Shown: positions 21,159 through 40,239, counted from the first letter of the stretch. The stretch is 40,371 nucleotides of DNA from Microcaldota archaeon (GCA_021789155.1 JAJYJW010000007.1:1-40371); one strand, 5' to 3'. Made by a program: numbers and translations. Notes: a model not told the origin generated them from the letters alone.

Positions 21159-22025
21159 TCAAGGTGCTGAATAACCTGAACCCCAGTTGCTGGTGAAACT
21201 AAGATACGATGCAACGCCATTGTTGTTATTACCTGAGTAATCTTTAACGTCTCCGTTCAAAGGCCACCAGCCAACTAGGTTGTTGAGCTTGATAGGTGCG
21301 CCGCCTATTCCTTCGTTGTAAAGTGCAGTTATCTCATTCGAAGACAATGATGAATTGTAAATCTGAATGTTTGCCATGGATCCATGTATTGAAAGTGCCA
21401 TATTTGGGTTATCTCCAATATATGTTGGTGTCGGTGTTGCTGCATAGCCTATCGTTCCACTTGCAACCACATTGCTGACAATCACCCCGTTAAAATACGT
21501 TCTAATATGGCTACCATCATATGTAAAAGCGATGAAATTCCACGTATTTTGGGTTACAGTACCCGTATTCACATTGTAAAATGTTCCCCCTGCGTTTAAT
21601 TGAGTTCCAATTTGATAATTATTTAGACCTTGATAAAATTCAAAACCAGTCCATGTCGGTGTGGTTTGTGCCAAATTACTTACTATTCTTGGATATGTCC
21701 CCGCACCTCTTATGTTAACCCATACTGCAACAGATACGTATGCGGGAGTTATTGCTGATGCACGTACTTGGCTGTATTGTCCATCGAATTGCGCTGCATA
21801 CTGCGGCAATTCGCCGTTGCATATTCCTTGCAGGTTGATGAACGAAGTAGTCATCGGTCCGTTAGGTCTGAATACGTGACATGCGCCAGGGGGCGCTTTT
21901 GGAGTAAATGTCGATGCATTGAAGATTCCTAGTTGAAACAAAGCGCCAAGCACTACCGCTATTATGAGTATTGCCCATCCGTAGGTCATGAGATATTCCA
22001 TTGCGGACTGAAGTTTGAATTTCAT
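21159..22025 (-). CDS. LamG-like surface protein A with class III (pilin-like) signal peptide
   Basis: MKFKLQSAMEYLMTYGWAILIIAVVLGALFQLG N-terminus, LamG-like core, terminal LVGWWPLNGDVKDYSGNNNNG...SGYSAP. Start trimmed from the ORF-track start to MKFKLQ. Confidence 0.8.
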   Translation of the reverse strand: MKFKLQSAMEYLMTYGWAILIIAVVLGALFQLGIFNASTFTPKAPPGACHVFRPNGPMTTSFINLQGICNGELPQYAAQFDGQYSQVRASAITPAYVSVAVWVNIRGAGTYPRIVSNLAQTTPTWTGFEFYQGLNNYQIGTQLNAGGTFYNVNTGTVTQNTWNFIAFTYDGSHIRTYFNGVIVSNVVASGTIGYAATPTPTYIGDNPNMALSIHGSMANIQIYNSSLSSNEITALYNEGIGGAPIKLNNLVGWWPLNGDVKDYSGNNNNGVASYLSFTSNWGSGYSAP

Positions 22026-22032
22026 ATTACCA

Positions 22033-22938
22033 TCATGGTGCGGAATAACCTGATTCCCAGTTGCTGGTGAACGTGACGCCCGAGGGTACACCGTTGTTAT
22101 TGTTTCCAGAATAATCTTTCGTGTCGCCGTTCAAAGGCCACCAGCCAACGAGATTGTTGAGCTGCACTGGAGCTGCCCCAATACCCCCATTGTACAATGC
22201 GGTTATCTCATTGCTACTAAGAGTAGTGTTGTAAATCTGTACGTTGCTTATCTGGCCCTTCCAATTCGATCCTCCCGATCCGGCACTTCCACCTATCATG
22301 AACGGACTTGCTGCAGGGATTGAAAACGCCAGAGTTGCTGATACTGTATTCGTATATAGATGGCCATTGATCCCAGCGTATTGGATTATATGTGTACCGT
22401 CAAATCCAAAAACGAAGAAGCTGTATTGGTTTGTGGGAACTAGCGATCCATAAAGGCATGCGCTTTCGTAGCTTATCGATGTTGCGTATATGACATCCAA
22501 ATAATAGTTTCCACTGCACCCAGAATCTGGTCCGAATTCCATCGATGGCTGCGCACCTGCATTATAGCTTGCTATGGTATAATAAGCAGCGATTATCGAG
22601 GGATTAGCCCATGCAACAATCGTTATTTTGCTGGAACCACCATACGACAACGCCTGCATTCCGGTAAGTTTTGCTATGCTTATTGTTGAACTGCCACTGA
22701 ATTGCGCTGCATACTGCGGCAATTCCCCGTTGCATATTCCTTGAAGATTTATGAATGACACTGTATTAGGACCATTTGGCCTGAAGACATGACATGCGCC
22801 TGGCGGCGCCTTTGGGGTGAATGTAGAAGCGTTGAAAATACCTAGTTGGAAGAGTGCACCTAGGACTACTGCGATAATCAGAATTGCCCATCCGTAGGTC
22901 ATGAGATATTCCATCGCTGACTGAAGCTTAGAGGGCAT
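22033..22938 (-). CDS. LamG-like surface protein B with class III (pilin-like) signal peptide
   Basis: MPSKLQSAMEYLMTYGWAIL..., LVGWWPLNGDTKDYSGNNNNG...ESGYSAP; paralogue of A. Confidence 0.82.
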   Translation of the reverse strand: MPSKLQSAMEYLMTYGWAILIIAVVLGALFQLGIFNASTFTPKAPPGACHVFRPNGPNTVSFINLQGICNGELPQYAAQFSGSSTISIAKLTGMQALSYGGSSKITIVAWANPSIIAAYYTIASYNAGAQPSMEFGPDSGCSGNYYLDVIYATSISYESACLYGSLVPTNQYSFFVFGFDGTHIIQYAGINGHLYTNTVSATLAFSIPAASPFMIGGSAGSGGSNWKGQISNVQIYNTTLSSNEITALYNGGIGAAPVQLNNLVGWWPLNGDTKDYSGNNNNGVPSGVTFTSNWESGYSAP

Positions 22939-22975
22939 TAAATCTTGTGATAAGACACATGCAATCTTATTATAC

Positions 22976-22985
22976 GTTTTTATAT
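22976..22985 (-). promoter_or_regulatory. TATA-like promoter of LamG B/A pair
   Basis: Minus-strand CATATAAAAACG about 40 nt upstream of the ATG at 22938. Confidence 0.4.
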
Positions 22986-23151
22986 GCTTCCATACAGAAG
23001 AATAATTACATATTTTGAAGCGTGTTCACGTTATAACGCTAGTTCCGTAAATGCGATAGGAATATAAATATGAAGATTTAATAATAAACAGTTTTGTTTA
23101 CATTTAGCAGTTTCTATTAATGAAGGTCTGCTTATTAAGGCGTGTTTATCT

Positions 23152-24120
23152 ATGAGAAGAGGTTCTTTAGAATTTTGGCCACATAGGCGTGCGAAGCGCA
23201 TCCTTCCTAGAGTAAGGCATTGGCCCACTATGGAGAAAGCAGGTTTCTCCGGAATAGTCGCGTTCAAGGCAGGGATGACTCACGTCGGAGTTATAGAGCA
23301 CAGGGATACAGGTTCAAAGGGTAACGAAGTAATAAGGCCTGCAACAATCTTGGAAATACCAAAGATGAAGGTTTATGGAATAAGGCTTTATTCCAAGAAA
23401 AACAGTTACACAGAACCAAAAAGCGATTTCTATTCTGCAGAGGAAGCAGCGAAACTTGGGATAAAGAAAACCGAGAACACGATTGCAAAGCTCGCAGACT
23501 CTAAGAAAGACGTTTCCGGATTGACAGATGCAGCGGCATTGGTTTATTTTGACGGGGCAACGACAGGCTCAGGCAACAAGAGAGTAATGAGGTTGGAGCT
23601 GCACGTCGGCGGCAAGGACGTCTCGGAGAAGATTGCGTTCATTGAAAGTCAAATGGGAAAAGAGATCAACGTCAAAGAATTCGCGACCGAAGGCGAATAC
23701 CTCGATATGACTGCAGTGACGAAAGGAAGGGGATGGGCAGGAGTTATAAAGAGATTCGGGGTTGCACGTTTGGTAAGAAAGGCAACACAGAAGACAAGGC
23801 ACGTAGGAACCCTCGGAGCTTGGCACCCACCAAAGGTGCTTTACACAGTACCTCATGCAGGGCATATGGGATTCAACTACAGGACCGAGATCAACAAGCG
23901 ATTGCTGAAGGTCGGAACTATTGCAGATGTTAAAGAAGTTGCAATGAAGGGGGGCATACTCAACTACGGAATAGTGAAGAGCGATTTCCTTATAGTAGAC
24001 GGATCGATACCTGGAGTATCGAAAAGATTGATAAGGATAAGAAAGGCAATGAGACCTTCTCGCACTGAAGCGAAACCGGAACTGAAGTATATATCACTTG
24101 AATCAAAGCAAGGTGCATGA
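23152..24120 (+). CDS. rpl3: 50S ribosomal protein L3
   Basis: RRGSLEFWPHRRAKRILPRVRHWP ... KTRHVGTLGAWHPPKVLYTVPHAGHMGFNYRTEINKRLLKVG. Confidence 0.96.
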   Translation: MRRGSLEFWPHRRAKRILPRVRHWPTMEKAGFSGIVAFKAGMTHVGVIEHRDTGSKGNEVIRPATILEIPKMKVYGIRLYSKKNSYTEPKSDFYSAEEAAKLGIKKTENTIAKLADSKKDVSGLTDAAALVYFDGATTGSGNKRVMRLELHVGGKDVSEKIAFIESQMGKEINVKEFATEGEYLDMTAVTKGRGWAGVIKRFGVARLVRKATQKTRHVGTLGAWHPPKVLYTVPHAGHMGFNYRTEINKRLLKVGTIADVKEVAMKGGILNYGIVKSDFLIVDGSIPGVSKRLIRIRKAMRPSRTEAKPELKYISLESKQGA

Positions 24121-24121
24121 C

Positions 24122-24922
24122 ATGAATGCTAACATTTACAACATCGAAGGCAAGAATACGAAACAGGTAGAGTTACCTGCAGTATTCAAGTCCAGATTCG
24201 AAAAGAGTTTGGTAACTAGAGCTTTGCTGGCGGAACAAAGCCTCAGATACCAACCTCAAGGGCATAACGTAATGGCAGGTATGAACACCACTGCCGCATA
24301 CATAGGAGAATATTCCACATATAGAACCGGAAGGCACATGGGTATCGCGGTAAGGCCAAGGCAGAAGCTTGCAGGAGGTGCGATGGGAGCAGTAAGGAGA
24401 ATTCCTTCCGCAGTAAAGGGAAGAAGAGCTCATCCGCACAAGATAGACAAGATAACTGTGGAAAAGATAAACGCGAAGGAATACAGGAAGGCGTTGTCTT
24501 CTGCGATAGCGGGAACTACAAAGCTAGAACTTGTTGCCGAAAGGGCAAAGGTGACCGAGAAGATGCAGTTGCCCATAGTATTTGAAGATTCGATAGAAAA
24601 GGTTGCGAAGGCAAAGGATCTCGTGAAGATATTGAACGTGTTGGGCTTGAAGGAGGATTTGCAGGCTTCGCATGATCCGAAGAACAGAAAGGGATTGAGA
24701 AGGAGCACAAACAACAGAAGGTTCAGGAAAAGCGTATTGCTTGTTGTAAGCAATGAAGCTGCACTCGAAAAGGCAGGAAGGAACATTCCTGGAATAGACG
24801 TTGCAAGAGTAGACATGTTGCGCGTAGAAAAGGTTGCACCTGGTTCTATACCAAGGCTTACGATATGGAGCGAAAGTGCGCTGGGAAAGGTCGCTTCTGC
24901 GATAGAAAAAGCGAGGTTGTGA
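24122..24922 (+). CDS. rpl4: 50S ribosomal protein L4
   Basis: NIYNIEGKNTKQVELPAVF ... GRKHxG-type region and RRSTNNRRFRKSVLLVVSNE. Start trimmed to ATG 24122. Confidence 0.93.
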   Translation: MNANIYNIEGKNTKQVELPAVFKSRFEKSLVTRALLAEQSLRYQPQGHNVMAGMNTTAAYIGEYSTYRTGRHMGIAVRPRQKLAGGAMGAVRRIPSAVKGRRAHPHKIDKITVEKINAKEYRKALSSAIAGTTKLELVAERAKVTEKMQLPIVFEDSIEKVAKAKDLVKILNVLGLKEDLQASHDPKNRKGLRRSTNNRRFRKSVLLVVSNEAALEKAGRNIPGIDVARVDMLRVEKVAPGSIPRLTIWSESALGKVASAIEKARL

Positions 24923-24924
24923 TC

Positions 24925-25176
24925 ATGGTTTCATTATTGTATCCAGTAGCTACTGAAAAAGCGATAAACAAGATAGAACACGACAACGTAATCACATACG
25001 TTGTAGACATGCGTTCCACGAAGAAAGAAATAAAAGAAGAATTTGAGAAGACTTTTGCGGTCAAGGTAGATCAAATAAAGACCATGAGGAGCATACGCAA
25101 CATAAAGAGGGCTTACATAAAACTAAGCTCTGCCAACAAGGCTGCGGATGTTGCATTAAAACTTAAACTTGTGTGA
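24925..25176 (+). CDS. rpl23: 50S ribosomal protein L23
   Basis: PVATEKAINKIEHDNVITYVVDMRSTKKEIKEEFEKTFAVKVDQIKTM; start at MVSLLYPV. Confidence 0.93.
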   Translation: MVSLLYPVATEKAINKIEHDNVITYVVDMRSTKKEIKEEFEKTFAVKVDQIKTMRSIRNIKRAYIKLSSANKAADVALKLKLV

Positions 25177-25182
25177 TTAAGA

Positions 25183-25896
25183 ATGGGAAAGAAACTTCAC
25201 ATGCAAAGGCGAGGAAAAGGCAGTAATGCTTATACAAAATTGCCAAACCACGCGAAAGCGGATGTTGTATTCAGAGGAGTGCCAGATAAGGGAAAGGAGA
25301 TAGCAGAAGTAATAGAATTGGTACACGATCCTGGAAGAACTCCACCTTTGATGCTTCTAAAGTATGACAACAAAGAGGAGATGATGATAGCTCCGGAAGG
25401 CATAAAGATTGGCGACAAGGTGCAGGTTGGTGCAGATGCAAGCCTTGGGATAGGCAGCATAACGAGCATAGGAAGAATACCTGAAAGTATGCCAATATAC
25501 AACATAGAAGTTACGCCAGGAGACGGCGGCAAACTTGTGAGAGCTGCAGGAAGTTTCGCTACAGTAATTTCCCATTCAAGCAATACTTCAATGATAAGGC
25601 TTCCATCCAAGCAGATAATAGAAGTCAAGAACGTATGTTTAGCGCAGATAGGCGTTACTGCCGGAGGCGGCGCAACAATGCAGCCTATACTCAAGGCAGG
25701 AAAGCATCATTATATGATGCATGCTAAGAACATCAGATGGCCTGGAAACCGTGGAGTCAAGAGCAACCCTGTTGACCACCCATTCGGAGGCAAGCAGCAC
25801 CACAAAGGGGCAAGCAGCATGACCTCGAGAAACGCACCACCAGGCGCAAAGGTAGGACACATCGCTGCAAGGCGTGTAGGAAGAAAGAAGAGATGA
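25183..25896 (+). CDS. rpl2: 50S ribosomal protein L2
   Basis: VELVHDPGRTPPL-like segment, RGVKSNPVDHPFGGKQHHKGASSMTSRNAPPGAKVGHIAARRVGRKKR. Confidence 0.96.
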   Translation: MGKKLHMQRRGKGSNAYTKLPNHAKADVVFRGVPDKGKEIAEVIELVHDPGRTPPLMLLKYDNKEEMMIAPEGIKIGDKVQVGADASLGIGSITSIGRIPESMPIYNIEVTPGDGGKLVRAAGSFATVISHSSNTSMIRLPSKQIIEVKNVCLAQIGVTAGGGATMQPILKAGKHHYMMHAKNIRWPGNRGVKSNPVDHPFGGKQHHKGASSMTSRNAPPGAKVGHIAARRVGRKKR

Positions 25897-25900
25897 TAAT

Positions 25901-26290
25901 GTGGCACGAGTATTTTCATTTAGAGGAATGAGCATAGAACAGCTCCAGAAGCTTAGTATAAGCGAATTCGCAAAGATAATAAAGAGCAGACCAAGAAGGG
26001 CAATAACCAAGATGAGCGAAGATTACAAGAGGCTCATAAGCAAAGTCGAGAAGTACAAGGACAATCCTTCGAAGGTAATAAAAACGCACATAAGAGAAGC
26101 AGTAATACTCCCTGCATGGGTAGGCATGAACTTTGCAGTGCACAACGGAAAGGAATTCAAGCAGATGACGATTGCACCCGAGATGGTCGGCCACAGACTC
26201 GGAGAGTTCGCATTCTCAACGAAACGCGTATTGCACTCCGCGCCAGGTATACGTGCAACCCGTGGAAGCAAGTTCCTTGCTGTGAAGTGA
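25901..26290 (+). CDS. rps19: 30S ribosomal protein S19
   Basis: FSFRGMSIEQLQKLS, IKTHIREAVILPAWVGMNFAVHNGKEFKQMTIAPEMVGHRLGEFAFST. Confidence 0.95.
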   Translation: MARVFSFRGMSIEQLQKLSISEFAKIIKSRPRRAITKMSEDYKRLISKVEKYKDNPSKVIKTHIREAVILPAWVGMNFAVHNGKEFKQMTIAPEMVGHRLGEFAFSTKRVLHSAPGIRATRGSKFLAVK

Positions 26291-26294
26291 TAGC

Positions 26295-26954
26295 ATGAAT
26301 TATTCTCTCAACATAAAAGGAAACGATTTCGTAAAAGGAGCCGGAACTGGCATTAATGCGAGCATGAAGGATCTCGCGATAGTATGCACAAACATAAGGT
26401 ACATGAGCGTAGAGAACGCATTCCTTGTTCTCGATTCGCTCATTATGTTGAACAGGGCTATTCCTTTCAACAGGTACAACAAAAGACAGGGATCAAGAAG
26501 CGAACTCTCTGGAAAGAAGGGAGCATACCCGATAAAGGCAGCGAAGGAAGTCAGGAAAGTGCTTGAAAACGCCGTCGCTAATGCCGTAGCTAAAGGCAAG
26601 GACGATGCGGAAAAGCTTTTCGTGGTACATGCGGCTGCGAACAAAACCCTGATAATAAGGAGGAACCCTTCAAGGGGTACGCTCGCTTATGGTCGTGGAA
26701 TGTACGGAAGGAGCGCGATAGCGCACAGCGACATAGAATTGGCAAAGGTGGAAATCGCCCTTGGCGAGAAGGAGAACGAGAAGCTCACTAGCAACATGAA
26801 GTACTTCATAAACAAGAAGAACAAAGATTACGAGAATACTAAAAAGCAGATAATGCAGAAGGTAAGCAACGTTCCTGCAAAGCCTGAAAAGGAGAAGAAG
26901 GAAAAGGCAGGAAAGGAGAAGGAAAAAAGTGAGAAGAAGAAGGTTCTAGCTTAG
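26295..26954 (+). CDS. rpl22: 50S ribosomal protein L22 with K/E-rich C-terminal extension
   Basis: MSVENAFLVLDSLIMLNRAIPFNRYNKRQGSR ... RRNPSRGTLAYGRG; tail PEKEKKEKAGKEKEKSEKKKVLA. Confidence 0.9.
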   Translation: MNYSLNIKGNDFVKGAGTGINASMKDLAIVCTNIRYMSVENAFLVLDSLIMLNRAIPFNRYNKRQGSRSELSGKKGAYPIKAAKEVRKVLENAVANAVAKGKDDAEKLFVVHAAANKTLIIRRNPSRGTLAYGRGMYGRSAIAHSDIELAKVEIALGEKENEKLTSNMKYFINKKNKDYENTKKQIMQKVSNVPAKPEKEKKEKAGKEKEKSEKKKVLA

Positions 26955-27586
26955 TGATGCTTATGGTAATAGAGAGAAAATTCATAGACAATTCATTCGT
27001 AAAGTATAGGATTACAAAATACTTGGAAAAGACGCTCGCAAGAGCGGGATTCTCCAAGGTGGAAATTCAGAAAACGCCTATAATAACGAGAATAACCGTA
27101 TACGTTTCTGCCCCGGGAAGGGTAATAGGAAGGGGAGGGGAAACGATTAATGCGCTTACCGAAAGCCTGAAGACTAAATTCAGGATAGAGAACCCGCAGA
27201 TAGCGGTTTCGGAAGTTGCAAATCCAAAGCTCGAGCCAAGGCTCGTGGCAAAGAACATCGCGAATTCTTTGGAAAGAGGAGGAAACGCGAGAAGCATTCT
27301 CCACGCAGTTGTGAAGGACATAATGGCAAACGGAGCGATGGGCGCTGAGATAATAGCTGCCGGGAAGCTTGCAGCGAAAGGAGCCAAGAAGAGGATAATA
27401 AAAGTAAGGCTTGGATACATGCCAAAGGCGGGAGATACCGTGAAGCTTGTTGATGAGGCAAAGCTAACATCGTATCCTAAGTATGGTGCTATAGGGTTGA
27501 AGGTAAGGATAGTGCAGCCAGGAACCGTATTCCCAGACAGGGAAGCGAAGAAGGTTGATCTTCCGAAGAACTTCGCCACTACATGA
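26954..27586 (+). CDS. rps3: 30S ribosomal protein S3 (KH domain)
   Basis: VIERKFIDNSFVKYRITKYLEKTLARAGFSKVEIQKTPIITRITVYVSAPGRVIGRGGETINALTE. Confidence 0.95.
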   Translation: MMLMVIERKFIDNSFVKYRITKYLEKTLARAGFSKVEIQKTPIITRITVYVSAPGRVIGRGGETINALTESLKTKFRIENPQIAVSEVANPKLEPRLVAKNIANSLERGGNARSILHAVVKDIMANGAMGAEIIAAGKLAAKGAKKRIIKVRLGYMPKAGDTVKLVDEAKLTSYPKYGAIGLKVRIVQPGTVFPDREAKKVDLPKNFATT

Positions 27587-27615
27587 CATACATGCTTTTA
27601 TATCAAATATGAGGA

Positions 27616-27819
27616 ATGAATATCATGCAGATACAGGAACTACGCTCATTATCAACTGAGTCGATAAAGGCAAAGCTCGGCGAATTAAGGTTGGAGCTCA
27701 ACATAGAAAAGAGAAAGATAGCAAGCACTGGGGTTAGCAGCAAGAAGGTCAAGGCAAGGGACATGCATAGAACTATAGCAAGGCTTCTGACTATCCTTAG
27801 GGAAAGAGGTGCGCAGTAG
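27616..27819 (+). CDS. rpl29: 50S ribosomal protein L29
   Basis: ELRSLSTESIKAKLGELRLELNIEKRKIAS ... ARDMHRTIARLLTILRERG. Confidence 0.92.
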   Translation: MNIMQIQELRSLSTESIKAKLGELRLELNIEKRKIASTGVSSKKVKARDMHRTIARLLTILRERGAQ

Positions 27820-27821
27820 TA

Positions 27822-28127
27822 ATGGCTGACATCTGTCCTAAATGTGGTTTGCCAAAAGAATTGTGTGTTTGCGACGTACTCGATAAGGAAACGAGCAAGC
27901 GCATACGTGTTTATAAGGAAAAGAAGAAATTCCGCAGATATATGACCATAGTGGAAGGTCTTGATGGCGAGGAAATGGAGAGGACCGCAAAGGAGCTAAA
28001 GAGACTTTTGGCTTGCGGAGGGACTTACAAGAATGGAATGATAGAATTGCAAGGTGATCACATAAACGAAGCTAAGAAAGCTCTGATAGGGATGGGATAT
28101 CCTGAAACGAGCATAGACCTCACCTGA
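27822..28127 (+). CDS. Translation initiation factor aIF1 (SUI1)
   Basis: CPKCGLPKELCVCD, IRVYKEKKKFRRYMTIVEGLD, KRLLACGGTYKNGMIELQGDH. Confidence 0.94.
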   Translation: MADICPKCGLPKELCVCDVLDKETSKRIRVYKEKKKFRRYMTIVEGLDGEEMERTAKELKRLLACGGTYKNGMIELQGDHINEAKKALIGMGYPETSIDLT

Positions 28128-28142
28128 TTCTTTTCCAACGAA

Positions 28143-28154
28143 GTCGTATACGAC
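28143..28154. repeat. Perfect 12-nt palindrome GTCGTATACGAC
   Basis: Direct reading, intergenic between aIF1 and the 101-aa ORF. Confidence 0.55.
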
Positions 28155-28170
28155 ATCTGTACGGCTATTC

Positions 28171-28219
28171 CACAACCTTCTTTTAAACAAACTCTAAAAG
28201 GAGTTTGCAAAAGGTTGTG
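28171..28219. repeat. Long imperfect inverted repeat (cacaaccttcttttaaacaaactc / gagtttgcaaaaggttgtg, loop taaaag)
   Basis: The 3' arm reverse complement CACAACCTTTTGCAAACTC aligns with the 5' arm; ends 3 nt before ATG 28223. Confidence 0.65.
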
Positions 28220-28222
28220 AAA

Positions 28223-28510
28223 ATGGCGACAAAACTTGTTGAACCTGTTCAAATAGAACTCGATGCTGAAACGCAAATAGAGATGCTGCATTTCATCCAA
28301 ACACATGAGGATGGAATCGGATTCGTGGATTTCGCAACGCAAATCAGAAACGAAAGCGAAACAGACTACGAATCGCAAGAGCCTTTTTCTTCCGGCGCAA
28401 ACCAGAAAACGCACGATAACGAATATTTCAAAGAGTATGTGGAAAGCAGGAGGGAAAAACGTCTAGAAACGCGCGAAATGGAAATCGAAGATGGAACTTA
28501 TCCGCAGTAA
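28223..28510 (+). CDS. Hypothetical acidic protein
   Basis: ORF MATKLVEPVQIELDAETQIEMLHFIQTHEDG...; ATG 28223 preferred over the TTG at 28205 that lies inside the hairpin. Confidence 0.5.
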   Translation: MATKLVEPVQIELDAETQIEMLHFIQTHEDGIGFVDFATQIRNESETDYESQEPFSSGANQKTHDNEYFKEYVESRREKRLETREMEIEDGTYPQ

Positions 28511-28553
28511 TCTGCGATAAGGTTAAAAGGATTGAATTTGTATTGTCTTTGAT

Positions 28554-29957
28554 TTGATGCTACCGTTGATAGCAGTGCTGCTTCTTGCTCCAATAGCAGG
28601 AATACTGATCGGATTCACACTGCACGAGTCGAGAATGCACGGCATTGCGATACTAGTATCGACGATAACGCTCGCAATAGTTCTGTTCATGGCGTTTCTT
28701 TTCTGGAGCAACTCAAGCTCGCAGATAGGAAACATCGTAGTGCCTTACCTGCAAAACGCCAGCATAAACATAGGATTTACAGTAACGCAAACTAGCATGA
28801 TAATACTTGTGGCGGTTGCGCTGGTGTTCTTCGGAGCTTCGATAGCGCAGAGCAGCATGATAAGCGAGAAGGAAAGGATCTACGGCATTTCTTTCCTTGT
28901 GGCGCAGCTGGGAACTTTCGGCGTATTGCTTTCCGCCAATCTTATAACGTTCTACATCTTCTGGGAACTTTCGGAAGTCGCAGCTTTCTTCATCATATTC
29001 GTATTCGGAAGTTTCGACAGAAGGCATGCGGCTATGAAATTCCTTGTTTATTCGTTTGCGTCTACCCTCCTGTTTCTATTCGCGGCATTGCTAATATTTG
29101 AATATGCAGGTACTATCGAAATAGCTGCCATAGCGCAAAGCATCTCAAGTGCGAATGTTTCGATTCAGCTTGCAATAGCAACTTTGCTAATCCTGTCTTT
29201 CGGGATAAAAATGCCGGTATTTCCATTGCACGGATGGCTTCCGGAAGCTTATTCCGAGGCGCCGCCCACTGGCTCGATGATTCTGGGAGGAGCATTGTCG
29301 AAGATAGGCGCGTATGGTCTTCTCGTAACCGTATTGATAATTCCCGCGCTTAGCTCATACATGCAGTACGTTGCGATTCTGTTCGCGTTCTCCGCTGTTT
29401 ATGCGGCGTTGATAACGATAAGGCAAACGGAATTGAGAAGCACGATAGCATATGCGAGCATGGCAGGTATGGGCGTGATAGGATTCGCGATAACCGCGAA
29501 CAACCAGACCGCAGTGTATGGCGCATTGTATTCGATAATCGCGCACAGCATTGGCATTTCGGTTCTGTTCCTATGCTCCGGAGCTATAATGAAAGCGTAC
29601 GGAACGGACATAATAGAAAAACTCCACGGACTTGTCGAGAGCTCATCAAACATAAGCTACGTATTCCTTGCTGCGGCATTGATACAAGTCGGCATGCCAT
29701 TGACTCCTGGATTGATAGCGGATATTCTCATGCTTACCGGAATATTCTCGAAATTCTCCTATGCTGGATTCATAGTCATCATTCCGATATTCCTAATATT
29801 CGCATACCTGTTCAGGATACTTGAGATATCCTTCTTCTCGAAGGAGAACGAGATGCGCCAGTTTTACGTCGTAGACAACAACGTACTGCTCGCGTGCATA
29901 CTGCTGATATGCGCAGCCGTAGCGTTTGGTCTGTTCCCTTCGTTGCTGATAAGGTGA
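28554..29957 (+). CDS. Proton-conducting membrane transporter (complex I NuoM/N / Mrp antiporter family)
   Basis: FPLHGWLPEAYSEAPPTGSMILGGALSKIGAYGLL signature and about 12-14 TM. Confidence 0.88.
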   Translation: MMLPLIAVLLLAPIAGILIGFTLHESRMHGIAILVSTITLAIVLFMAFLFWSNSSSQIGNIVVPYLQNASINIGFTVTQTSMIILVAVALVFFGASIAQSSMISEKERIYGISFLVAQLGTFGVLLSANLITFYIFWELSEVAAFFIIFVFGSFDRRHAAMKFLVYSFASTLLFLFAALLIFEYAGTIEIAAIAQSISSANVSIQLAIATLLILSFGIKMPVFPLHGWLPEAYSEAPPTGSMILGGALSKIGAYGLLVTVLIIPALSSYMQYVAILFAFSAVYAALITIRQTELRSTIAYASMAGMGVIGFAITANNQTAVYGALYSIIAHSIGISVLFLCSGAIMKAYGTDIIEKLHGLVESSSNISYVFLAAALIQVGMPLTPGLIADILMLTGIFSKFSYAGFIVIIPIFLIFAYLFRILEISFFSKENEMRQFYVVDNNVLLACILLICAAVAFGLFPSLLIR

Positions 29958-30775: not shown

Positions 30776-30931
30776 CCTTCAGCGACTAAACATCTTTTGG
30801 TGCCTTCATGGCGTGCTTTATCTTGTAAAAAAACTTAAGAGCGCTCTAGCTTTTTTGTGTTTGCAAGAGATACAATTTTTGTATTCTAGCATGTCGCACC
30901 CGTGATATTGCAATTTTGCAATTGATTTGAG

Positions 30932-30952
30932 GAGAAGTATAAAGCTTTGTAT
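30932..30952 (+). other. 5' arm of 23S rRNA processing stem
   Basis: gagaagtataaagctttgtat pairs with 33799-33819 atacaagctttatacttcttc (14 contiguous bp, 1-nt bulge, then 4 bp). Confidence 0.7.
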
Positions 30953-33800
30953 ATTACTAAGCCACTTAGTGGATGGCTTGGCTCTGGTAGCGAAGAAAGT
31001 CGTGGCAAGCTGCGATAAGCTTCGGGTAGGCGCATGTCAGCCTTTGAACCGAAGATTACTGAATCGTATACCATGTATAATGGTGTAAGCAAACGCGGGG
31101 AACTGAAGTATCTTAGTACCCGCAGGAGAAGAAAGCAACAGCGATACCTTTAGTAACGCGAGTGAACGAGGTAGAGGACAATCTGAATCCTACTTTGCAA
31201 AAAGCAAGGAGATGTGGTGCAACTTTTAGACTTGTATCATCAGCAGAACGCTCTGAAAAGAGTGGCCATAGAGAGTGACAGCCTCGTATGCGAATTGATG
31301 TGAGTTTTGTTGTGAAGAGTAGTCCGGCTTTATTATGCCGGATGAATATGGGGGCATTAAACTCCAATCCTAAATATTGACCAGAGACCGATAGCGAACA
31401 AGTAGTGCGAACGAAAGCTGAAAAGAACCCACACGCGTGGGAGTGAAATAGATCTGAAACTAAGTGGTTACAAGAAGATGTGGCATGAAAGGGATGACGC
31501 ATGCAGAAGCGAAGAGCCGAAAGGCAACAGCGATGCATGTTACCAGTGTTACATCCTTCTTCTTGAAGCAAGAGCCAGGGAGTGTATTTGAGTGGCAAGT
31601 TTATAGCGCAGCGAAAGCGAGTGCACGCAAGCAATGAGGTGCAGGGTGCGAAAGCGCCTAAGCCACTAATCTACGACCCGAAGCCATTGTGATCTACGCG
31701 CGGCCAGGGCGAAGTCGAATTGACGTTCGATGGAGGCCCGATACCTGTCATGGCATGTCCTGTTGGGTGAGCTGCGGGTAGGGGCGATAGACCTATCGAA
31801 CATGGCAATAGCGGGTCCCTTCTGAAGTATCTTCAGGATAGCTCCGGGTTAGTTTGCACATAAGGTAGAGCAACCGATTAGGAAGCGCGGAGCCGAAAGG
31901 CTCTACTTTCTCGTCAAACTCCGAATATATGTGCTGCGTAGACCCCGGGAGTCGGGCGCGTTGGGTAAGCTAGCGCGACGAGACCGTAAAGACGGTGACT
32001 GAGGTTAAGGTCCCTAAATCGTAATTAAGTGTAACAAAGTATGGCAATTTCGTAGACAGTCGGGAGGTAGGCTCAGAAGCAGCCACCCTTTAAAAAACGA
32101 GTAATAGCGTACCGATTAAGATTTTGCTGTGCGAAAATGGACGGGGCTAAATTATGTACCGAGACCCCAGAGTCGAAAGACTGGTAAGAAGGCGTGCTGC
32201 ATGACAAGAAGTGAGTTCGAAAGAACTCGTGGATCGTGCAGTTGAGAAAATCCTGGTGTTAGTAATATCATATAATTGTGAGAATCAATTACACCGGAAG
32301 CACAAGGTTTTCCTCGCAATGATCGTCAGCGGGGAGTTAGGCGGTCCTAAGTGCGGAGCCAATCACTACCGCGCAAAAGGGTAGCCAGTTAATATTCTGG
32401 CCCTTGATACGTAGGCGTGGCAACACAAGGTTGATTTCTGACGCCTGGGGATAGGCTTGTAACAACGTGCAAATGGCTGCAGAGTCTTATTATGAGGAGA
32501 AGCAGCTAAATGAACTTATAGCCAAATTCCTGGGCCCGTGAAAAGGGAATCAGCAACGATCGTATCAATCCGTACCGAGAACTAGCACAAGTGCTGCTGG
32601 CTGAAAAGGCCAAGGTGTGGCGGAAGAACCAAGGTTAGGGAAATCGGCCAATTAGTGGTGTAAGTTTTCAAGAAACCATGTCTGCGCTTAGTAAGTGCAG
32701 ATAGCATTAACTAGGGGGGAGCGACTGTTTATCAAAAACACAACTCACCGCACAGCCGTAAGGCTTAGTACAGTGGGTGACGCCTGCTCACCGCTAGTAC
32801 GCGAAACCCCGTTTCAACGGGACTAAGCGCTAGCAAAGAGCGGGAGTAACTCTGACTCTCTTTAGGTAGCGTAATACCTCGTCACTTAATAGGTGACTTG
32901 CATGAAGGGCGTAACGACTCCCCTACTGTCCCAATCTTGGATCCGGTGAACTCACTGCATGGTGAATATGCCATGTTCTTTCAGTGGGAAATGAAGTCTC
33001 CATGAAGCTTTACTATAGCCTGTTGTTGTTGTGCAGCGGACGCTGCATAGCGTAATTGGGAGCGTCGAAACCATGGCTTCGGTCATGGTGGAGCGAAAGT
33101 GTAACACCAATCTACGTTTGCTGCACAGCTAACCTCGAAAGGGGAACAGCTGCAGGTGGATAGTTAGACTGGGCGGTTGCTTTCGATAAGGAAACGAAAG
33201 TGACCAATGCTCTGCTTAAGCTGGTTGGAAACCAGCTGTTAAGCATAAAGGCAAATGCAGGGCTGACTGTATCCTTAAAAGCGTGGGATGCAGACTAGAA
33301 ATAGGGGCTTAACGAACCCTGGAAACCCTTTTAATGGGGTTCCATGCTGTCAGATAAGTTACTCTGGAGGTAACCGGTTCGTGGCTGGTGAGCGTTCAAA
33401 GCGACCCAGCCGTTTGATACATCGATATGGGCTTAGGTCATCCTGGTGGTGCAGGAGCTGCCAAGGGCTGGACTGCTCGTCCATTAAAGACCTACATGAG
33501 CTGAGTTCAGTACGTCGCGAGACAGTACGGTAATATCTACTGGAAGTGTTAATGTCAGAGGATAAGAAATCTCTAGTACGAGAGGAACAGGATTTCGGCG
33601 CCTCTAGCTTATCGGTTGTCCATTTGGGCATAGCCGAGTAGCCACGCGCCAAGCGGATAAGTCCTGAATGCATCTAAGGACGAAGCCGCACCCGAAACGA
33701 GACATTTAGGGAGGTTATAGTACATGACCTTGATAGGGTAGGCGTGTAAGCAGGGAGCTTCGGCGACCTGTGAGCGCACTGCTACTAACTCCTAATTTAT
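30952..33800 (+). rRNA. 23S ribosomal RNA (ends approximate)
   Basis: 5' actaagccacttagtggatggcttggctc; conserved core segments; sarcin-ricin loop agtacgagaggaac (about 33576); 3' gctactaact. About 2.85 kb. Confidence 0.95.
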
Positions 33801-33819
33801 ACAAGCTTTATACTTCTTC
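33799..33819 (+). other. 3' arm of 23S rRNA processing stem
   Basis: atacaagctttatacttcttc, complementary to 30932-30952. Confidence 0.7.
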
Positions 33820-33888
33820 ACTCTTTTTGTTTTTTCAAATACTTAGCGTAAGCCAACATAGGAAACCGCGAAGAAAGAATGAATATAA

Positions 33889-34596
33889 ATGGCTTCGGGC
33901 AAAACGTTTGTTACTGATAATATGCCAGACTCGAAGTTCCTATGCTTGAACATATTCAAGGACGATGATTATACTATAACGTTAGTGCGGGAAGTTCTGA
34001 AGGAAATGGAAAGAAGGGATGACATGGAACTTGCACCCGATGATCCGATTTCAAACGACAACAGCATGTTTTCGCTCAACAGAATAGGAATAAGCAAGGA
34101 ATATTCGACGGCATTGAACGAAAGCTGCTTCTCCCTTTTCAGAAAAGACGGAAAAGGCTCGGGATTCGTGCTTGCTGACGACGCTCTTAGATTCGGGATA
34201 ACCATTGGTTTCATGTGCAGCCGCATGGGAGAAGCGATATGCATAAGCGGCGACAGGTATTGCAAACCTGTTGAATTCGCGGTAAACCACGAAAAAGGGC
34301 ACGTGCTGTTCTCCACTAATCCAAAACAAAGCGAGATGTTATCGCAGATTTACGCGCTTTTGCAGACTAGATATCCTATTTACGACTATGCGAGCATGAT
34401 AGCAGCATACTGCCTCGCGGAACTTAATGAAGAGAGAAACGAGCACGTTAAAAATGGCGCTACAAAGGAAAGCGTATTAGAAAAAGCAATGGCCTTGCAC
34501 AATGCGAATGCTTATCTTACCGAAGAAAGCATGGGTTATTTGCGCAAAGCATACGGTTACATAGTAGACTCTGAACTTTTCTGGACTTACCTGTAA
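33889..34596 (+). CDS. Uncharacterised protein with HEXXH motif (putative zinc metallopeptidase-like)
   Basis: 235 aa; VEFAVNHEKGHVLFS (HEKGH, codons from 34288) and about 40 residues later AELNEERNEH as a possible third-ligand helix. Confidence 0.45.
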   Translation: MASGKTFVTDNMPDSKFLCLNIFKDDDYTITLVREVLKEMERRDDMELAPDDPISNDNSMFSLNRIGISKEYSTALNESCFSLFRKDGKGSGFVLADDALRFGITIGFMCSRMGEAICISGDRYCKPVEFAVNHEKGHVLFSTNPKQSEMLSQIYALLQTRYPIYDYASMIAAYCLAELNEERNEHVKNGATKESVLEKAMALHNANAYLTEESMGYLRKAYGYIVDSELFWTYL

Positions 34597-34872
34597 TCAT
34601 TCCTTGATTGACTCGAGCAAGCTGAGCACATTCCATATTACGGTCCTTGCGTAAGGCGGTAAGTTGATGTCATTGCTCACTTCGTCTATCTTGTAAGTGG
34701 CGCTTGAAGCTCTTACGGCGTATCCTTCTTCGCCGTCAAGCAACTTTTTCGCTGAATCGAGTGCGCTTTTCACGTTCCTTGGAACGCTATTATCGCCTAA
34801 AAGCATGTCCAATTGCTGTTTTATCTGGACTATCGTTGCTTCGAACTTCGGATTTGAATTTGGCTTAGCCAT
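34597..34872 (-). CDS. UPF0147 family protein
   Basis: LDMLLGDNSVPRNVKSALDSAKKLLDGEEGYAVRASSATYKIDEVSNDINLPPYARTVIWNVLSLLE. Confidence 0.88.
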   Translation of the reverse strand: MAKPNSNPKFEATIVQIKQQLDMLLGDNSVPRNVKSALDSAKKLLDGEEGYAVRASSATYKIDEVSNDINLPPYARTVIWNVLSLLESIKE

Positions 34873-34885
34873 GACAACACCTATT

Positions 34886-34985
34886 CGGGCTCGGCGGGAT
34901 TTTCATTGATCTATAAAAGACCATTTTGAACCCGCGACCTTTAGCTTAGAAGGCTACCGCTCTATCCAAGCTGAGCTACGAGCCC
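34886..34985 (-). tRNA. tRNA-Arg (anticodon UCU) interrupted by a T-loop intron
   Basis: Minus strand GGGCTCG TA GCTC AGCTTGGATA GAGC G GTAGC CTTCTAA GCTAA AGGTC GCGGG TTCAAA [intron] T CCCGC CGAGCCC G. Acceptor, D, anticodon and T stems form; CCA not encoded. Confidence 0.93.
34900..34924 (-). other. 25-nt tRNA intron at position 59/60 (T-loop)
   Basis: Removing ATGGTCTTTTATAGATCAATGAAAA restores a canonical 7-nt T-loop TTCAAAT. A bulge-helix-bulge can be drawn: TTCA/TGAA 4-bp central helix, 3-nt bulges AAA and AAT, intron hairpin TGGTC/GATCA. Confidence 0.85.
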
Positions 34986-35066
34986 ATACGTTATATTCTG
35001 TATTTAAGGGTTTATTAAGCTTTATATCCTCGCCAGCAGGACATAATTGAAATTTTGCTTCGTTTT

Positions 35067-35831
35067 TCATATGAAGAACAGGTTTCTTGTATTCGAAGAA
35101 GTTTGCCTTGCTACCTCTTCCACGCTCATTTCCTTGTACTTGGCAACGAGCTCTATTGATTTCAAAACGTCTGAAGGAATAGCCCCGACTACTGGAGAAT
35201 CCGTTTCAACGAGTATTTGCTCTATGGGCATTGCCTTCACGGCCCTTTTCCTCTTACTCGATTCTGTTGGAGGTATTGAGATGAAATAGCCATTGTCCTT
35301 TATCAGATTTGCTTCTATCTCGCTACCCTCATAATGATGGAACATCACGTTCTTTGCGTCTTTTCTACTCAGCAGTTCTATGCATTCAGTTAGTGCAACC
35401 CTTGAATGAACCACCAAAGGGATATGCAATTCATTGGCAAGATCTATTTGCAATGAAAACGCTTCGCGTTGCTTTTCTTTTTCCTTGTCTGAAGGCGCAG
35501 ATTTGTAGTCCAATCCTACTTCTCCTATTCCTACGATCTTGCGATTCATGCGCACAAGTTCAGCCAATTCCGCTATGTATGCGTAATCTTTCAGCACATA
35601 ATCTGGGCTTATACCGACAACCCCGAAAACGCTGTCGTTCGAGAGAAGATTGAGGACTGCAATGTTGTCTTCTGCAGAACCTCCTGCGCTTATCATAGCA
35701 CTCACCCCGTTCGATAACGATTCCGCAACGGTCTTGACGGGATCATCGAAAAGATTGAGATGGCAATGCGCGTCTATCATCTCAAGTTCTATGCCTTTGG
35801 TACGCTCTTGCATGCGCGATGTTTGCATCAT
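35067..35831 (-). CDS. tatD: TatD family hydrolase (DNase)
   Basis: MIDAHCHLNLFDDP, VGIGEVGLDYKSAPSDKEKEKQREAFSLQIDLANELHIPLVVHSR, ILVETDSP. Exact start uncertain (35780-35864). Confidence 0.9.
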   Translation of the reverse strand: MMQTSRMQERTKGIELEMIDAHCHLNLFDDPVKTVAESLSNGVSAMISAGGSAEDNIAVLNLLSNDSVFGVVGISPDYVLKDYAYIAELAELVRMNRKIVGIGEVGLDYKSAPSDKEKEKQREAFSLQIDLANELHIPLVVHSRVALTECIELLSRKDAKNVMFHHYEGSEIEANLIKDNGYFISIPPTESSKRKRAVKAMPIEQILVETDSPVVGAIPSDVLKSIELVAKYKEMSVEEVARQTSSNTRNLFFI

Positions 35832-35888
35832 GATAAACACGAAACAATAGTAATATAACCCCATAATATTAAATATAATCTGAGTTTT

Positions 35889-36953
35889 ATGCCATCGAAT
35901 AAAAAATCTAGCGTAGAGAAAACAATCAAAACGCTCAAGCTAGTATCTTTTGCAGCACTCCTTATAGGAATTGCAGCAATAGTCGTGGGAATTTACGCGT
36001 ATCTCGGTGCCCAGAATGCGATAAGCATAGCAAGCACTGCAGCAAAATCAACCAACACCACAGTAAAGCTAATCGCGCTGAACGTTACGAGCAGCCTGAT
36101 AACGCCTAATGACACTTATCCTGGATATCCAGTGATAACGCAGAACCAATCCTTCGGGAGCAGGCTTACGAACATCAATGCGCCTTTGAATAGCTCAGAA
36201 TTGAGCATAATAAACAACGCTCCTGATTCTTACTTCACACATGCTGGAGAGCTGTTGCTCAGCGGGTCATTTCAGGGCGTGGGCCTAAACAGACCTGACA
36301 ATTCTAGCACGTTGATGGTAAACGGCAAACCAACGGTAATATATCTAGGGGCAATCTCATGCGTGTATTGCGCAGAGAACAGATGGGCAATGGCACTTGC
36401 ACTTAGCAGATTCGGAAACTTCAGCGCGTTATACAAGGGATACAGCGCGTTGAAGGACGCAGACCTTCCGACGTTGTTCTGGCGCCCTGTAGCGTACAAT
36501 GCAACTGCAGAGATGAACCTAGGCAGCTTCTATTCAAGCAAATACCTGAATTTCTTGCCTTTGGAATTCGCATCTAACATATATTCAGGGTTTAACTTTG
36601 CACCTCTATCGCAAGTACAAAGCATGGTGGCAAGCAACAACAACGCAGCATACGATGCTGCAGTCAACGTCATAGTCGCGAACAACAATTTCGCCGGAAC
36701 GCCATACACTATTTGGGGCAGGTATAGCGTAGGGGGCGCTGATGCCAGCATATTCTCCAATGGCACCACCACGATAATGAACATGACGCATGAGCAAATA
36801 CTACACCAGATAGCTTATCCGACCAATACTTTCGGATATGCCGAATACGGTGCTGCGGACATATACATTGCATTGCTGTGCAAGTCGATAAACAACACTG
36901 CTCCAGCATGCGGAATGAACACAATAACCGCGATAGCAAGCAGGTTGACCTGA
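35889..36953 (+). CDS. DUF929-like membrane-anchored thioredoxin-fold protein
   Basis: N-terminal TM anchor, then [33 protein letters not shown] (CxxC) and [15 protein letters not shown]. Confidence 0.75.
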
Positions 36954-37028
36954 AACGCGCATTATCTGCGCGTTCCAGCAGGGAACAACACATAAATAGG
37001 AAAAAAGCCTCATGTTTTAGCGATTTAG

Positions 37029-37544
37029 ATGCAAGAACTCATCAAAGACTTGCGTGCGTTTTATTCTTCAAGAACTGCGGTGTACTTGAACGTAGCATTC
37101 GCTGCGATCTACTATTTGCTGATTGAATACATAATCGCATCATCAAACTATGGCAATTCATTTTTCGTCACTATTCCGCAATATCTGATTTATGCGTTGG
37201 TTCTTAGCGCATCTGCGCTGATGGCACTTAGCATATACGTAACGTACAGCTTGCATTCCTTAGGAAAGGGCACAAACGGAATATTCGGAATGGCCGCAGC
37301 CGTTGTTGGGGGAGCGATAGCTGGATGCGGTTGCTCCGCGCCTCTGATCGCTGCACCGCTCTACGCATTGTCATTGAACGCATTGGAAGTCAGTTCTGTG
37401 ATATCGTGGGTTGCTGATTATCAAGTGTATCTGATACTTGCAGCGATACTCATCAACATCGTACTTTTTGCGATGAATCTTCCAAACGTAAGAAAGTGCA
37501 TACCTAAGGCAAGCAAAAAAACTAGACACAATACTAGAAACTAA
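37029..37544 (+). CDS. Small multi-pass membrane protein with GCGCS motif
   Basis: 171 aa, about 4 TM, AVVGGAIAGCGCSAPLIAAPLYALSLNALEVSSVISWVADYQVYLILAAILINI. Confidence 0.65.
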   Translation: MQELIKDLRAFYSSRTAVYLNVAFAAIYYLLIEYIIASSNYGNSFFVTIPQYLIYALVLSASALMALSIYVTYSLHSLGKGTNGIFGMAAAVVGGAIAGCGCSAPLIAAPLYALSLNALEVSSVISWVADYQVYLILAAILINIVLFAMNLPNVRKCIPKASKKTRHNTRN

Positions 37545-38413
37545 GGTATGGTATAACCATTGGTCCATGTACTAGTGAATATCACGTTTGACGGAGTTCC
37601 GGCGTAATTGTTTCCAGAATAGTCGTTCACATCGTTATTCAAAGGCCACCAGCCAACTATGTGGTTGAGCTGTATAGGTGCGCCGCCTATTCCTTCATAA
37701 TACAGATTCTTTATGTCGTTCGCAGACAATGTAGTATTGTAGAACTGGACATTGGATATGAGGTCTACAGCGTATGTGGAATTATGTATTGTGAATACTC
37801 CTGCCAGAGGGCTGAAAGTACCAGTTATAGGTGTCGTTGATTGCAGTACCCCATTAAGGTACAGATTTATCGTCTGTGCGTTTGTATCATATTCTGCTGT
37901 TGCCATATACCACACGTTTGGTTTTCCCTGTGGATAACCTGCAAAGAATTGCCCCCATGCAGTGTTGGTTATTGAGGAGATGCATGCAAACGCGGTGCGC
38001 GGCCAACTATCGCGTAACGTGAATCCTGAATGCGTGTTCATATTCCCCCACACCAAATAATATTGGTTGTAATTCGTGGGACCTGACGATTCCGATATCC
38101 ACATATTGATCGTAACCGGACCAGTTGTAGATGCGAAATTACCTGTAAGCGATGAAGTTGCCCCGTTGAAATACGCCACGTATTGAGGTATCTCGTTAGT
38201 GCATACTCCCTTCTTAACGGCAAGATTAGAGTTGTGCGCGCCATAAGGCCGGTATATAGAGCACGAACCTGTTTGCGCCTTCGGGGTAAAAGTGTATGAA
38301 TTGAGAACTCCCATCTGAAGCAAACCCGCGAGCACCACCACCATGATCAGTATTGCCCACCCGTAGGTCATGAGGTATTCCATGGCAGATTGCGCAAACA
38401 ACTTCCTAAGCAT
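37541..38413 (-). CDS. LamG-like surface protein C with class III signal peptide (divergent member)
   Basis: MLRKLFAQSAMEYLMTYGWAILIMVVVLAGLLQMG ... IVGWWPLNNDVNDYSGNNYAGTPSNVIFTSTWTNGYTIP. Confidence 0.8.
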   Translation of the reverse strand: MLRKLFAQSAMEYLMTYGWAILIMVVVLAGLLQMGVLNSYTFTPKAQTGSCSIYRPYGAHNSNLAVKKGVCTNEIPQYVAYFNGATSSLTGNFASTTGPVTINMWISESSGPTNYNQYYLVWGNMNTHSGFTLRDSWPRTAFACISSITNTAWGQFFAGYPQGKPNVWYMATAEYDTNAQTINLYLNGVLQSTTPITGTFSPLAGVFTIHNSTYAVDLISNVQFYNTTLSANDIKNLYYEGIGGAPIQLNHIVGWWPLNNDVNDYSGNNYAGTPSNVIFTSTWTNGYTIP

Positions 38414-38444
38414 GATAACATCTGCACATTATGCATATTTAAGG

Positions 38445-39335
38445 CTAAGGAGCCGAATAGCCTGAAACCCAGGAGCTGGTGAATGTTACTCCAGTAGTAG
38501 CTTGAGCGTTTTTGTTGTTTCCCGAATAATCCTTCGTATCTCCGTTCAAAGGCCACCAGCCGATCAGATTATTGAGTTTTAGCGGGGCGCCGCCTATTCC
38601 TTCCTGATACAACGCCACTACCTCGTTTGCTGTCAACGAGTAGTTGTATATTTGCAGATTGCTTATTTGCCCTCTGAAATAAGGATAGTTCCCGCTTGAA
38701 CCGCCTATCATTAGATTAGATGTAGACGCCGCAAGGTTTCCCGTATGTGCTGTTGAACCCTGAAGCTTGCCGTTTTGGTAAAGATAAATGTTTGAACCAT
38801 CATATACCCCTACCAAGAAATCCCATTGGCCAAGGGTTTCGCATGCTGATGCAGGACACAAGTTACCAGTTCCTATGGCGTTTATCAGGAAGCACCATCT
38901 AGAACATGCTGGAGGACCGAATGTGCCCATATTCAAACTTATGCCTCCGTTCAATTGGTCATTGTTTCCTACTATTGCCGGCCAACCGCCTCCAGCAGTG
39001 TTTCTCCACGAAGGATTAGCCCATACCGAAATAGTAAGTTTGTTCGTTATCGCAAGCGACGTAGATGAAGGTACGGTAGCAGGTCCTGCACCTGAAAAAC
39101 TTGCAGCATACTGCGGCAATTCTCCATTACATATTCCTTGAAGATTGATGAAAGAAGTCGTGAAAGGACCGTTTGGCCTGAAGACGTGGCATGCGCCTGG
39201 AGGCGCCTTTGGCGTGAAAGTAGATGCATTGAAGATCCCCAACTGAAACAATGCGCCGAGTACGACCGCAATGATCAATATCGCCCAGCCATAGGTCATG
39301 AGATATTCCATCGCTGACTGAAGTTTGAATTTCAT
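38445..39335 (-). CDS. LamG-like surface protein D with class III signal peptide
   Basis: MKFKLQSAMEYLMTYGWAIL ... LIGWWPLNGDTKDYSGNNKNAQATTGVTFTSSWVSGYSAP; start trimmed to MKFKLQ. Confidence 0.82.
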   Translation of the reverse strand: MKFKLQSAMEYLMTYGWAILIIAVVLGALFQLGIFNASTFTPKAPPGACHVFRPNGPFTTSFINLQGICNGELPQYAASFSGAGPATVPSSTSLAITNKLTISVWANPSWRNTAGGGWPAIVGNNDQLNGGISLNMGTFGPPACSRWCFLINAIGTGNLCPASACETLGQWDFLVGVYDGSNIYLYQNGKLQGSTAHTGNLAASTSNLMIGGSSGNYPYFRGQISNLQIYNYSLTANEVVALYQEGIGGAPLKLNNLIGWWPLNGDTKDYSGNNKNAQATTGVTFTSSWVSGYSAP

Positions 39336-39342
39336 ATTACCA

Positions 39343-40239
39343 TCATGGTGCGGAATAACCTGATTCCCAGGAGCTGGTGAATGTAACGCTCGATGCAGCA
39401 CCATTGTTGTTGTTTCCAGAGTAATCTTTCGTGTCGCCGTTCAAAGGCCACCAACCAACGAGGTTGTTGAGCTTGATGGGGGCGCCGCCTATTCCTTCCT
39501 GGTAGAGTGAAGTTATCTCGTTGGCAGATAATGTAGTATTGTAGAACTGGACGTTTGCTATCGTACCTGGAAAGCCATAATTCAATCCTGCACCGATGTA
39601 GAATGGACCTGCAATTGCAGATTGTGCCGCAGTATCAATGGTAGTATACACCGTTGCGGCTGCACCGTCAATGTAAACCGATGAACTTGCTATCGAAGTG
39701 AGTGCATTACCTGGAACTGAAAACGATATGAAATGCCACGCGCCATCTATAGCGCTTGCACCCGTGCTCTGGAAATATCTGTAATTGCTTCCTCCCATGT
39801 ATATCAATGGGCCTATGCCTCCGGTTCCGCAGGATACGCACATTTCAGGCAGTGCTGACGTCCCCGAAAGGCCTAACGCTATATAGCTTGAGGATGACGA
39901 ACAGCCTATGCATCTTTCCCACAAAGTCAAAGTAAACACACTTGGTTCAAGTATGGTTTTCGTGCCTGCGTTTACGTAACTTGTAAGCGCACCGGTGAAC
40001 TTAGCCACATATTGAGGAAGTTCACCATTGCATATGCCCTGCGTATTGATAAATGAAGTTGTTCCTGGGCCGTTTGGCCTGAAGACGTGGCATGCGCCTG
40101 GGGGCGCCTTTGGCGTAAATGTCGATGCGTTGAAGATTCCGAGCTGGAAGAGTGCTCCTAAGACTACTGCGATGATGAGGATTGCCCATCCATAGGTCAT
40201 GAGATATTCCATCGCTGACTGGAGCAACATTTTATGCAT
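39343..40239 (-). CDS. LamG-like surface protein E with class III signal peptide
   Basis: MHKMLLQSAMEYLMTYGWAIL ... LVGWWPLNGDTKDYSGNNNNGAASSVTFTSSWESGYSAP. Confidence 0.82.
   Translation of the reverse strand: MHKMLLQSAMEYLMTYGWAILIIAVVLGALFQLGIFNASTFTPKAPPGACHVFRPNGPGTTSFINTQGICNGELPQYVAKFTGALTSYVNAGTKTILEPSVFTLTLWERCIGCSSSSSYIALGLSGTSALPEMCVSCGTGGIGPLIYMGGSNYRYFQSTGASAIDGAWHFISFSVPGNALTSIASSSVYIDGAAATVYTTIDTAAQSAIAGPFYIGAGLNYGFPGTIANVQFYNTTLSANEITSLYQEGIGGAPIKLNNLVGWWPLNGDTKDYSGNNNNGAASSVTFTSSWESGYSAP

Follow-up and report, generated by a model that had tools for sequence, protein, structure and literature searches.

Genes of the window

The DNA analysed here, referred to as the window, is a stretch of 40,371 nucleotides from a genome of Candidatus Micrarchaeota (G000; 796 kb or 0.8 Mb, 33 contigs, 90% complete). 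Five open reading frames that an earlier note had placed on its minus strand were translated without internal stops, and lie as a pair and a triple. In the pair, a gene of 288 aa (21159-22025; N-block 21798-22025, LamG head 21366-21797, C-block 21162-21365) is joined by one of 301 aa (22033-22938; N-block 22711-22938, head 22240-22710, C-block 22036-22239), its tandem partner and probably the lead gene of that pair. The triple is led by a gene of 298 aa (39343-40239; N-block 40009-40239, head 39550-40008, C-block 39346-39549), next to which are a gene of 296 aa coding for protein P0004 (38445-39335; N-block 39108-39335, head 38655-39107, C-block 38448-38654) and a divergent gene of 290 aa coding for protein P0003 (37541-38413; N-block 38180-38413, head 37748-38179, C-block 37544-37747). 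When the five proteins were aligned, the N-block of about 76 residues and the C-block of about 68 residues were near gap-free, and the centres of about 145-155 residues were scarcely alignable, in agreement with the constant ends and variable middle described earlier. The gene at 37541-38413 had already been recognised as divergent; this holds, with the correction that both its ends diverge.

Directly adjoining the triple (35889-37544) are genes for a CxxC-bearing DUF929 protein and for a small membrane protein that contains Cys; the two might have a role in disulfide formation of the Cys-paired heads. In the ProRS neighbourhood of four relatives, no family member was present within about 1.5 kb; thus the site of the window's pair is not conserved in these four. 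Also in the window, on the plus strand, is a complete gene for archaeal 23S rRNA (30944-33807), and a search for 16S rRNA gave no match in the window. A tRNA-like match of 59 bases on the minus strand (34927-34985) was at Rfam's threshold and was missed by ARAGORN. This element is possibly degenerate or unusual.

Head fold and pilin-like anchor

The centres of all five proteins matched Laminin_G_3 of Pfam with E values of 1e-23 to 4.5e-9 and with scores of 37.1-84.6 bits, the gathering cut-off being 27.6. The AlphaFold model of P0004 (pLDDT 79, pTM 0.77) comprised an N-terminal helix at residues 8-32 and a strand-rich jelly-roll head, and that of the divergent P0003 (pLDDT 71.5, pTM 0.69) likewise had a helix at the N-terminus and a head rich in strands. 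Foldseek matched both models, with a probability of 1.00 and at moderate TM-scores (about 0.4-0.6), to LamG/pentraxin/ConA-like jelly rolls, which included PAPP-A LamG, pentraxins and an arabinanase CBM. P0003 is predicted, from its model, to share the fold of the other members. The suggestion that each gene carries a different display domain was rejected on these data, as Pfam in five heads and AlphaFold in two models found one fold and not five unrelated ones. The LamG/ConA jelly roll is a generic ligand-binding fold and points to no particular ligand. The remainder of that suggestion, a shared pilin-like anchor or assembly module bearing diversified heads, agreed well with the order of parts that we found, namely a pilin-like N-terminus, a Laminin_G_3 head and a constant C-block. 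The feature of modular pilins, a functional domain grafted on a pilin moiety, is present here as a pilin-like helix and a LamG head in one chain. The lectin end of the TafC fimbrial protein family NF052521 (NCBIfam) gave weak matches, far under its cut-off (best E 3.5e-8), to the heads of the genes at 21159-22025, 22033-22938, 38445-39335 and 39343-40239.

The GWWPLNGD...DYSGNN segment of the C-block resembles a displaced first strand of a LamG domain, and closure of the heads might be provided by a circularly permuted strand or by one that a neighbouring subunit donates. Head profiles in permuted and in native order gave about equal best matches against PDB chains (38.5 vs 40.7 bits). In a multi-LamG protein of the genome, a WWPMD...TGN segment sits just before the head, which keeps the idea of circular permutation alive. 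Locus L052 (contig 7 of the genome, 6000-20000) codes, near a PilB-like ATPase, for very large proteins (736-1134 aa) that contain at least one LamG unit, and several of these carry a WWPLNGN...DYSGN segment.

Glu at +5, which a subset of archaeal pilins has, lies here within the QSAME motif and was invariant in 44/44 members of the genome and in an alignment of 62 sequences. The leaders are short, with K/R in most of them, and are followed by the hydrophobic helix (residues 8-32 in the model). At the cleavage site of the relatives, position -2 was K/R in 150/163 and position -1 was S/A/G in 114/163. Most members in the window's genome (41/44) have Leu at -1, outside the usual G/A/S rule; the divergent gene at 37541-38413 has Ala. 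Since PMC4371748 states that prepilin cleavage generally requires G/A/S at -1, and the genome mostly has Leu, cleavage of its members is plausible from their sequences, yet not secured. The A24 family (prepilin-type) peptidase encoded on the minus strand at 13219-14127, put forward earlier as a candidate processing enzyme, was the sole A24 peptidase found in the genome, and is thereby the natural candidate. It scored 29.0 bits over the whole open frame against a cut-off of 26.5, and 25.9 bits, just under the cut-off, as the ATG-started ORF. The genome has three PilB-like ATPases above the T2SSE cut-off. One PilB-type ATPase is followed by two membrane proteins that were read as TadC-like, and another lies beside very large multi-LamG proteins. 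The number of Cys residues was even in 43/44 members, as expected of an extracellular disulfide-bonded protein. For major pilin subunits, heads of the LamG type are large; the proteins may therefore not form the body of a filament but be minor pilins, tip pilins or pseudopilins held in the membrane.

Distribution of the family and histories of its parts

A genome-wide count, as proposed in the earlier note, showed the family to be larger than five: we found 44 full-length members, plus fragments. The full-length members take up 38.8 kb, which is 4.9% of the assembly. As several contigs break off within a member, 44 is a lower bound. The members are arranged in 24 separate arrays of 1-3 genes each, and most array-leading genes have an upstream region of their own. 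Near the arrays are short headless pilin-like genes of 156-184 residues (C18:10453-10923, L038; C32:53412-53966, L039), which start nearly as the LamG members do and have another C-terminal domain and no LamG head. They are candidate major pilins. The family was present in 60/60 of the nearest genomes (same family and order), in 4 to about 40 copies. Among 295 genomes of the phylum, strong matches were obtained only in two families of the window's own order, and other orders gave only weak matches at the level of LamG. The 76 relatives in named genomes came from Candidatus Micrarchaeota or Micrarchaeaceae, save those of one genome labelled Marsarchaeota.

Mean pairwise amino-acid identity among the 44 members was 0.90 in the N-block, 0.20-0.29 in the centre (depending on the alignment) and 0.72-0.74 in the C-block, with entropies of 0.31, 2.64 and 0.72 bits per site, respectively. 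The ends are characteristic of the genome in which they are found. The best match lay in the own genome for 87% of N-blocks, 73% of C-blocks and 23% of heads, against 13% by chance; N-block identity was 0.90 within and 0.71 between genomes, and two genomes of the same genus had visibly different end sequences.

An identical start of 36 residues, shared by 36 members, was encoded by 36 distinct DNA versions which were on average 20.6 of 108 nt apart. Recent gene conversion was thus rejected as a simple cause of the constant ends here, their silent sites being near saturation in the window's genome. Silent identity, compared with the expectation from composition, was 0.381 against 0.304 in the N-block, 0.343 against 0.296 in the C-block and 0.305 against 0.282 in the head of this genome, and 0.564 against 0.354, 0.544 against 0.355 and 0.307 against 0.306, respectively, in genome G031. 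Between genomes the value was 0.30, so that the excess in the ends is not accounted for by codon choices common to particular sites. Pairs on the same contig had higher silent identity (p=0.0002 for each end, p=0.018 for the head), with no effect at the amino-acid level. Since the silent excess in the window's genome is small, conversion there, as judged from these sequences, must be rare or old.

Recombination between copies was evident in genome G042, a single contig. The gene at 14471 (locus L200) was 100% identical to its downstream neighbour throughout N-block and head; over the final 60 codons of the C-block it was 100% identical to its upstream neighbour, whose head is unrelated. In another copy of this genome the N-block alone differs from the neighbours, and the recombinant junctions fall at the head boundaries. 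Two genes at L138 have identical heads and wholly different N-blocks, and in G028, also a single contig, ends of 88-95% nucleotide identity flank heads of about 40%. Assembly error, which can occur in a metagenome, is unlikely to be the source of several independent cases such as these. At 5641-12414 of L200 there is a tandem repeat of 1974 bp with pilin-LamG genes; three consecutive copies are identical gene-wide, which indicates very recent unequal recombination.

A head common to G021 and G031, genomes of different genera, had 77% amino-acid identity and matched at 37/53 silent sites, while the ends matched at 16/45; ProRS of the same genomes had 65% amino-acid identity and matched at 40/111 silent sites. 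The silent identity of the head exceeded that of ProRS (p=4.5e-5) and that of the ends (p=7e-4), and the ends equalled ProRS. These comparisons would most simply be read as transfer of the head, the ends being resident ones. For G051 and the genome of L118, too, the head seemed to have diverged less than the ends, at a marginal p=0.045, on account of which we did not accept this as a second case, and the evidence for head transfer comes mostly from the one strong pair, G021/G031. For related heads between genomes, dN/dS was 0.08-0.28 where it was measurable. Four more diverged pairs gave values in this range, and a single recent duplicate pair gave 0.76. The values of the four pairs led us to reject general positive selection on the heads, and imply that the heads are maintained and not churning. 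The word hypervariable, as applied earlier to the centres, is apt for the diversity among paralogs and not for rapid change of one gene.

Taken together, the sequences suggest that segmental gene conversion homogenises the ends, and that the heads persist as separate lineages, mostly under purifying selection. Rare segmental conversion would explain how different DNAs come to encode identical proteins, and also the species-specific ends, the effect of proximity and the recombinants.

A modular adhesin model, its alternatives and known systems

We favour, at a probability of roughly 0.6, the reading that these genes code for modular type IV pilin-like adhesins, with ends homogenised by conversion, heads kept as separate lineages, and a repertoire of binding specificities as the outcome. 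The A24 peptidase would cut off the short leader, and the invariant Q-S-A-M-E5 hydrophobic helix would hold the subunit in the membrane or in a filament. After the helix would come a short stalk, in which a Cys pair is conserved, and then the LamG/ConA-like jelly-roll head on display, with the constant C-block closing it. One species-specific anchor for many heads would allow the use of the same assembly machine and probably of the same filaments, and the ends are probably kept alike for this shared assembly interface, one machine serving many heads. Intragenomic gene conversion and unequal recombination would re-homogenise the N- and C-blocks repeatedly, at a rate below that of silent substitution and above that of accepted amino-acid change in the constrained ends. 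Heads could pass to other genomes, where the gene would have the recipient's own ends. The likely use would be a ligand-binding, probably glycan-binding, repertoire by which the cell would attach to host archaea, to other cells or to surfaces. Of these steps, we infer processing, co-assembly in filaments, the binding of ligands and the recognition of hosts.

Constancy of the ends could instead be due to purifying selection alone, acting very strongly on a common assembly interface, with no need of conversion. The 36 identical starts from 36 different DNAs do speak for extreme selection on the ends, but selection by itself fits poorly with ends that are uniform within species and different between species, with a silent excess that is concentrated in the ends and dependent on proximity, and with the existence of discrete recombinants; we regard it as quite improbable. 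Gonococcal-type (pilE/pilS) antigenic or phase variation, in which one expressed copy draws head sequence from silent donors, would account for constant ends with a variable centre, a pilin-type N-terminus and recombination visible between copies. Such an arrangement of one expressed locus with silent incomplete copies was rejected, because all 44 of the 44 genes are complete and open, and spread over 24 arrays, most of whose leaders have their own upstream region. Truncated donor cassettes were absent save for a remnant of 34 residues and fragments at contig ends. Moreover, the heads, being 20-30% identical and silent-saturated, are far too old for a switching repertoire, and related heads in different genomes show purifying selection, with dN/dS of 0.08-0.28. 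This kind of variation is thus very improbable.

A further alternative retains the pilin-like signal and dispenses with the pilus, the proteins being individually membrane-anchored lectins, as with archaeal class III-signal substrate-binding proteins, or secretion pseudopilins. The large C-terminal domain would suit such a role, and with Leu at -1 the leader might stay uncut and the helix serve as no more than an anchor. However, a free anchor would not need a near-invariant helix over 40 paralogs, and E5 and the K/R at -2 are preserved across the order. We consider this alternative unlikely, though the least so of the three. The modular adhesin reading can also be carried further: heads might be cassettes exchanged order-wide between species and genera and refitted with the N- and C-blocks of the recipient by recombination, mosaic pili with dozens of co-assembled heads might act as a partner-recognition code, and the strand of the C-block might be permuted or donated. 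This extension is tentative, and on balance doubtful.

An expansion of LamG-like jelly-roll proteins was reported for Mia14 (ARMAN-2-related) and other DPANN by Golyshina et al. 2017 (PMC5498576). According to the available part of that paper, Mia14 has two pilus systems and a single FlaK-like peptidase, and pili-like bridges joining small ARMAN-type cells to larger ones had been reported earlier. Mia14 resembles the window's genome in belonging to the same phylum and in having expanded LamG proteins, some of which are tied to type IV pilus loci. Its account, in the same part, is one of expansion and of a proposed role in host interaction, and does not mention an architecture of pilin, head and C-block, ends specific to a species, recombination or the exchange of heads. 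In the bacterium Streptococcus sanguinis, glycan binding by PilC was shown and its position at the pilus tip was modelled (PMC9934059). Like the window's family, PilC is a pilin with a class III signal peptide and a ConA-like lectin; unlike it, PilC is one gene in one operon and has an Ig-like module between pilin and lectin, and neither a multigene repertoire nor a conserved C-block was described. The H-domain hardly varies among the adhesion pilins PilA1-6 of Haloferax volcanii, which differ in adhesion (PMC4371748). The conserved part of these six pilins is described as the H-domain and not an N-block with a C-block, and the available part of the paper mentions no LamG head. The precedents of PilC and PilA1-6 make the idea of one machine with many heads plausible. 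In teleost clustered protocadherins, regional conversion homogenises one part within species, and the recognition domains remain distinct and orthologous between species (PMC1852091); these are unrelated vertebrate proteins in another genomic layout, and the analogy is in evolutionary logic only. Our search of the open-access literature, which did not extend to subscription journals, found no description of the pilin-LamG architecture or its evolution. The LamG expansion in Micrarchaeota is already known, and pilin anchoring with segmental concerted evolution is apparently new in the open literature that was searched.

It has long been asked how ultra-small DPANN archaea recognise their hosts and hold on to them, and molecular candidates are few. 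Here, a tiny, probably host-dependent archaeon keeps an order-wide family at about 5% of a reduced genome, and different heads on the same anchor may supply it with a repertoire of sticky, partner-recognising filaments. The family is also a clear archaeal case of segmental concerted evolution, in which end proteins are identical, their DNA is near silent saturation and the heads have their own histories. Anchor and head are separable for expression and testing, the heads are open to ligand screening, and the species-specific ends could tie uncultured genomes to filaments seen by cryo-EM.

With regard to glycosylation, the pilin-LamG proteins have a mean of two N-glycosylation sequons each. An STT3/AglB-like oligosaccharyl transferase is encoded at 2670-4991 of the window (TIGR04154, E 2e-15, far under its cut-off), and the genes near it read like glycosyltransferases and sugar-nucleotide genes.
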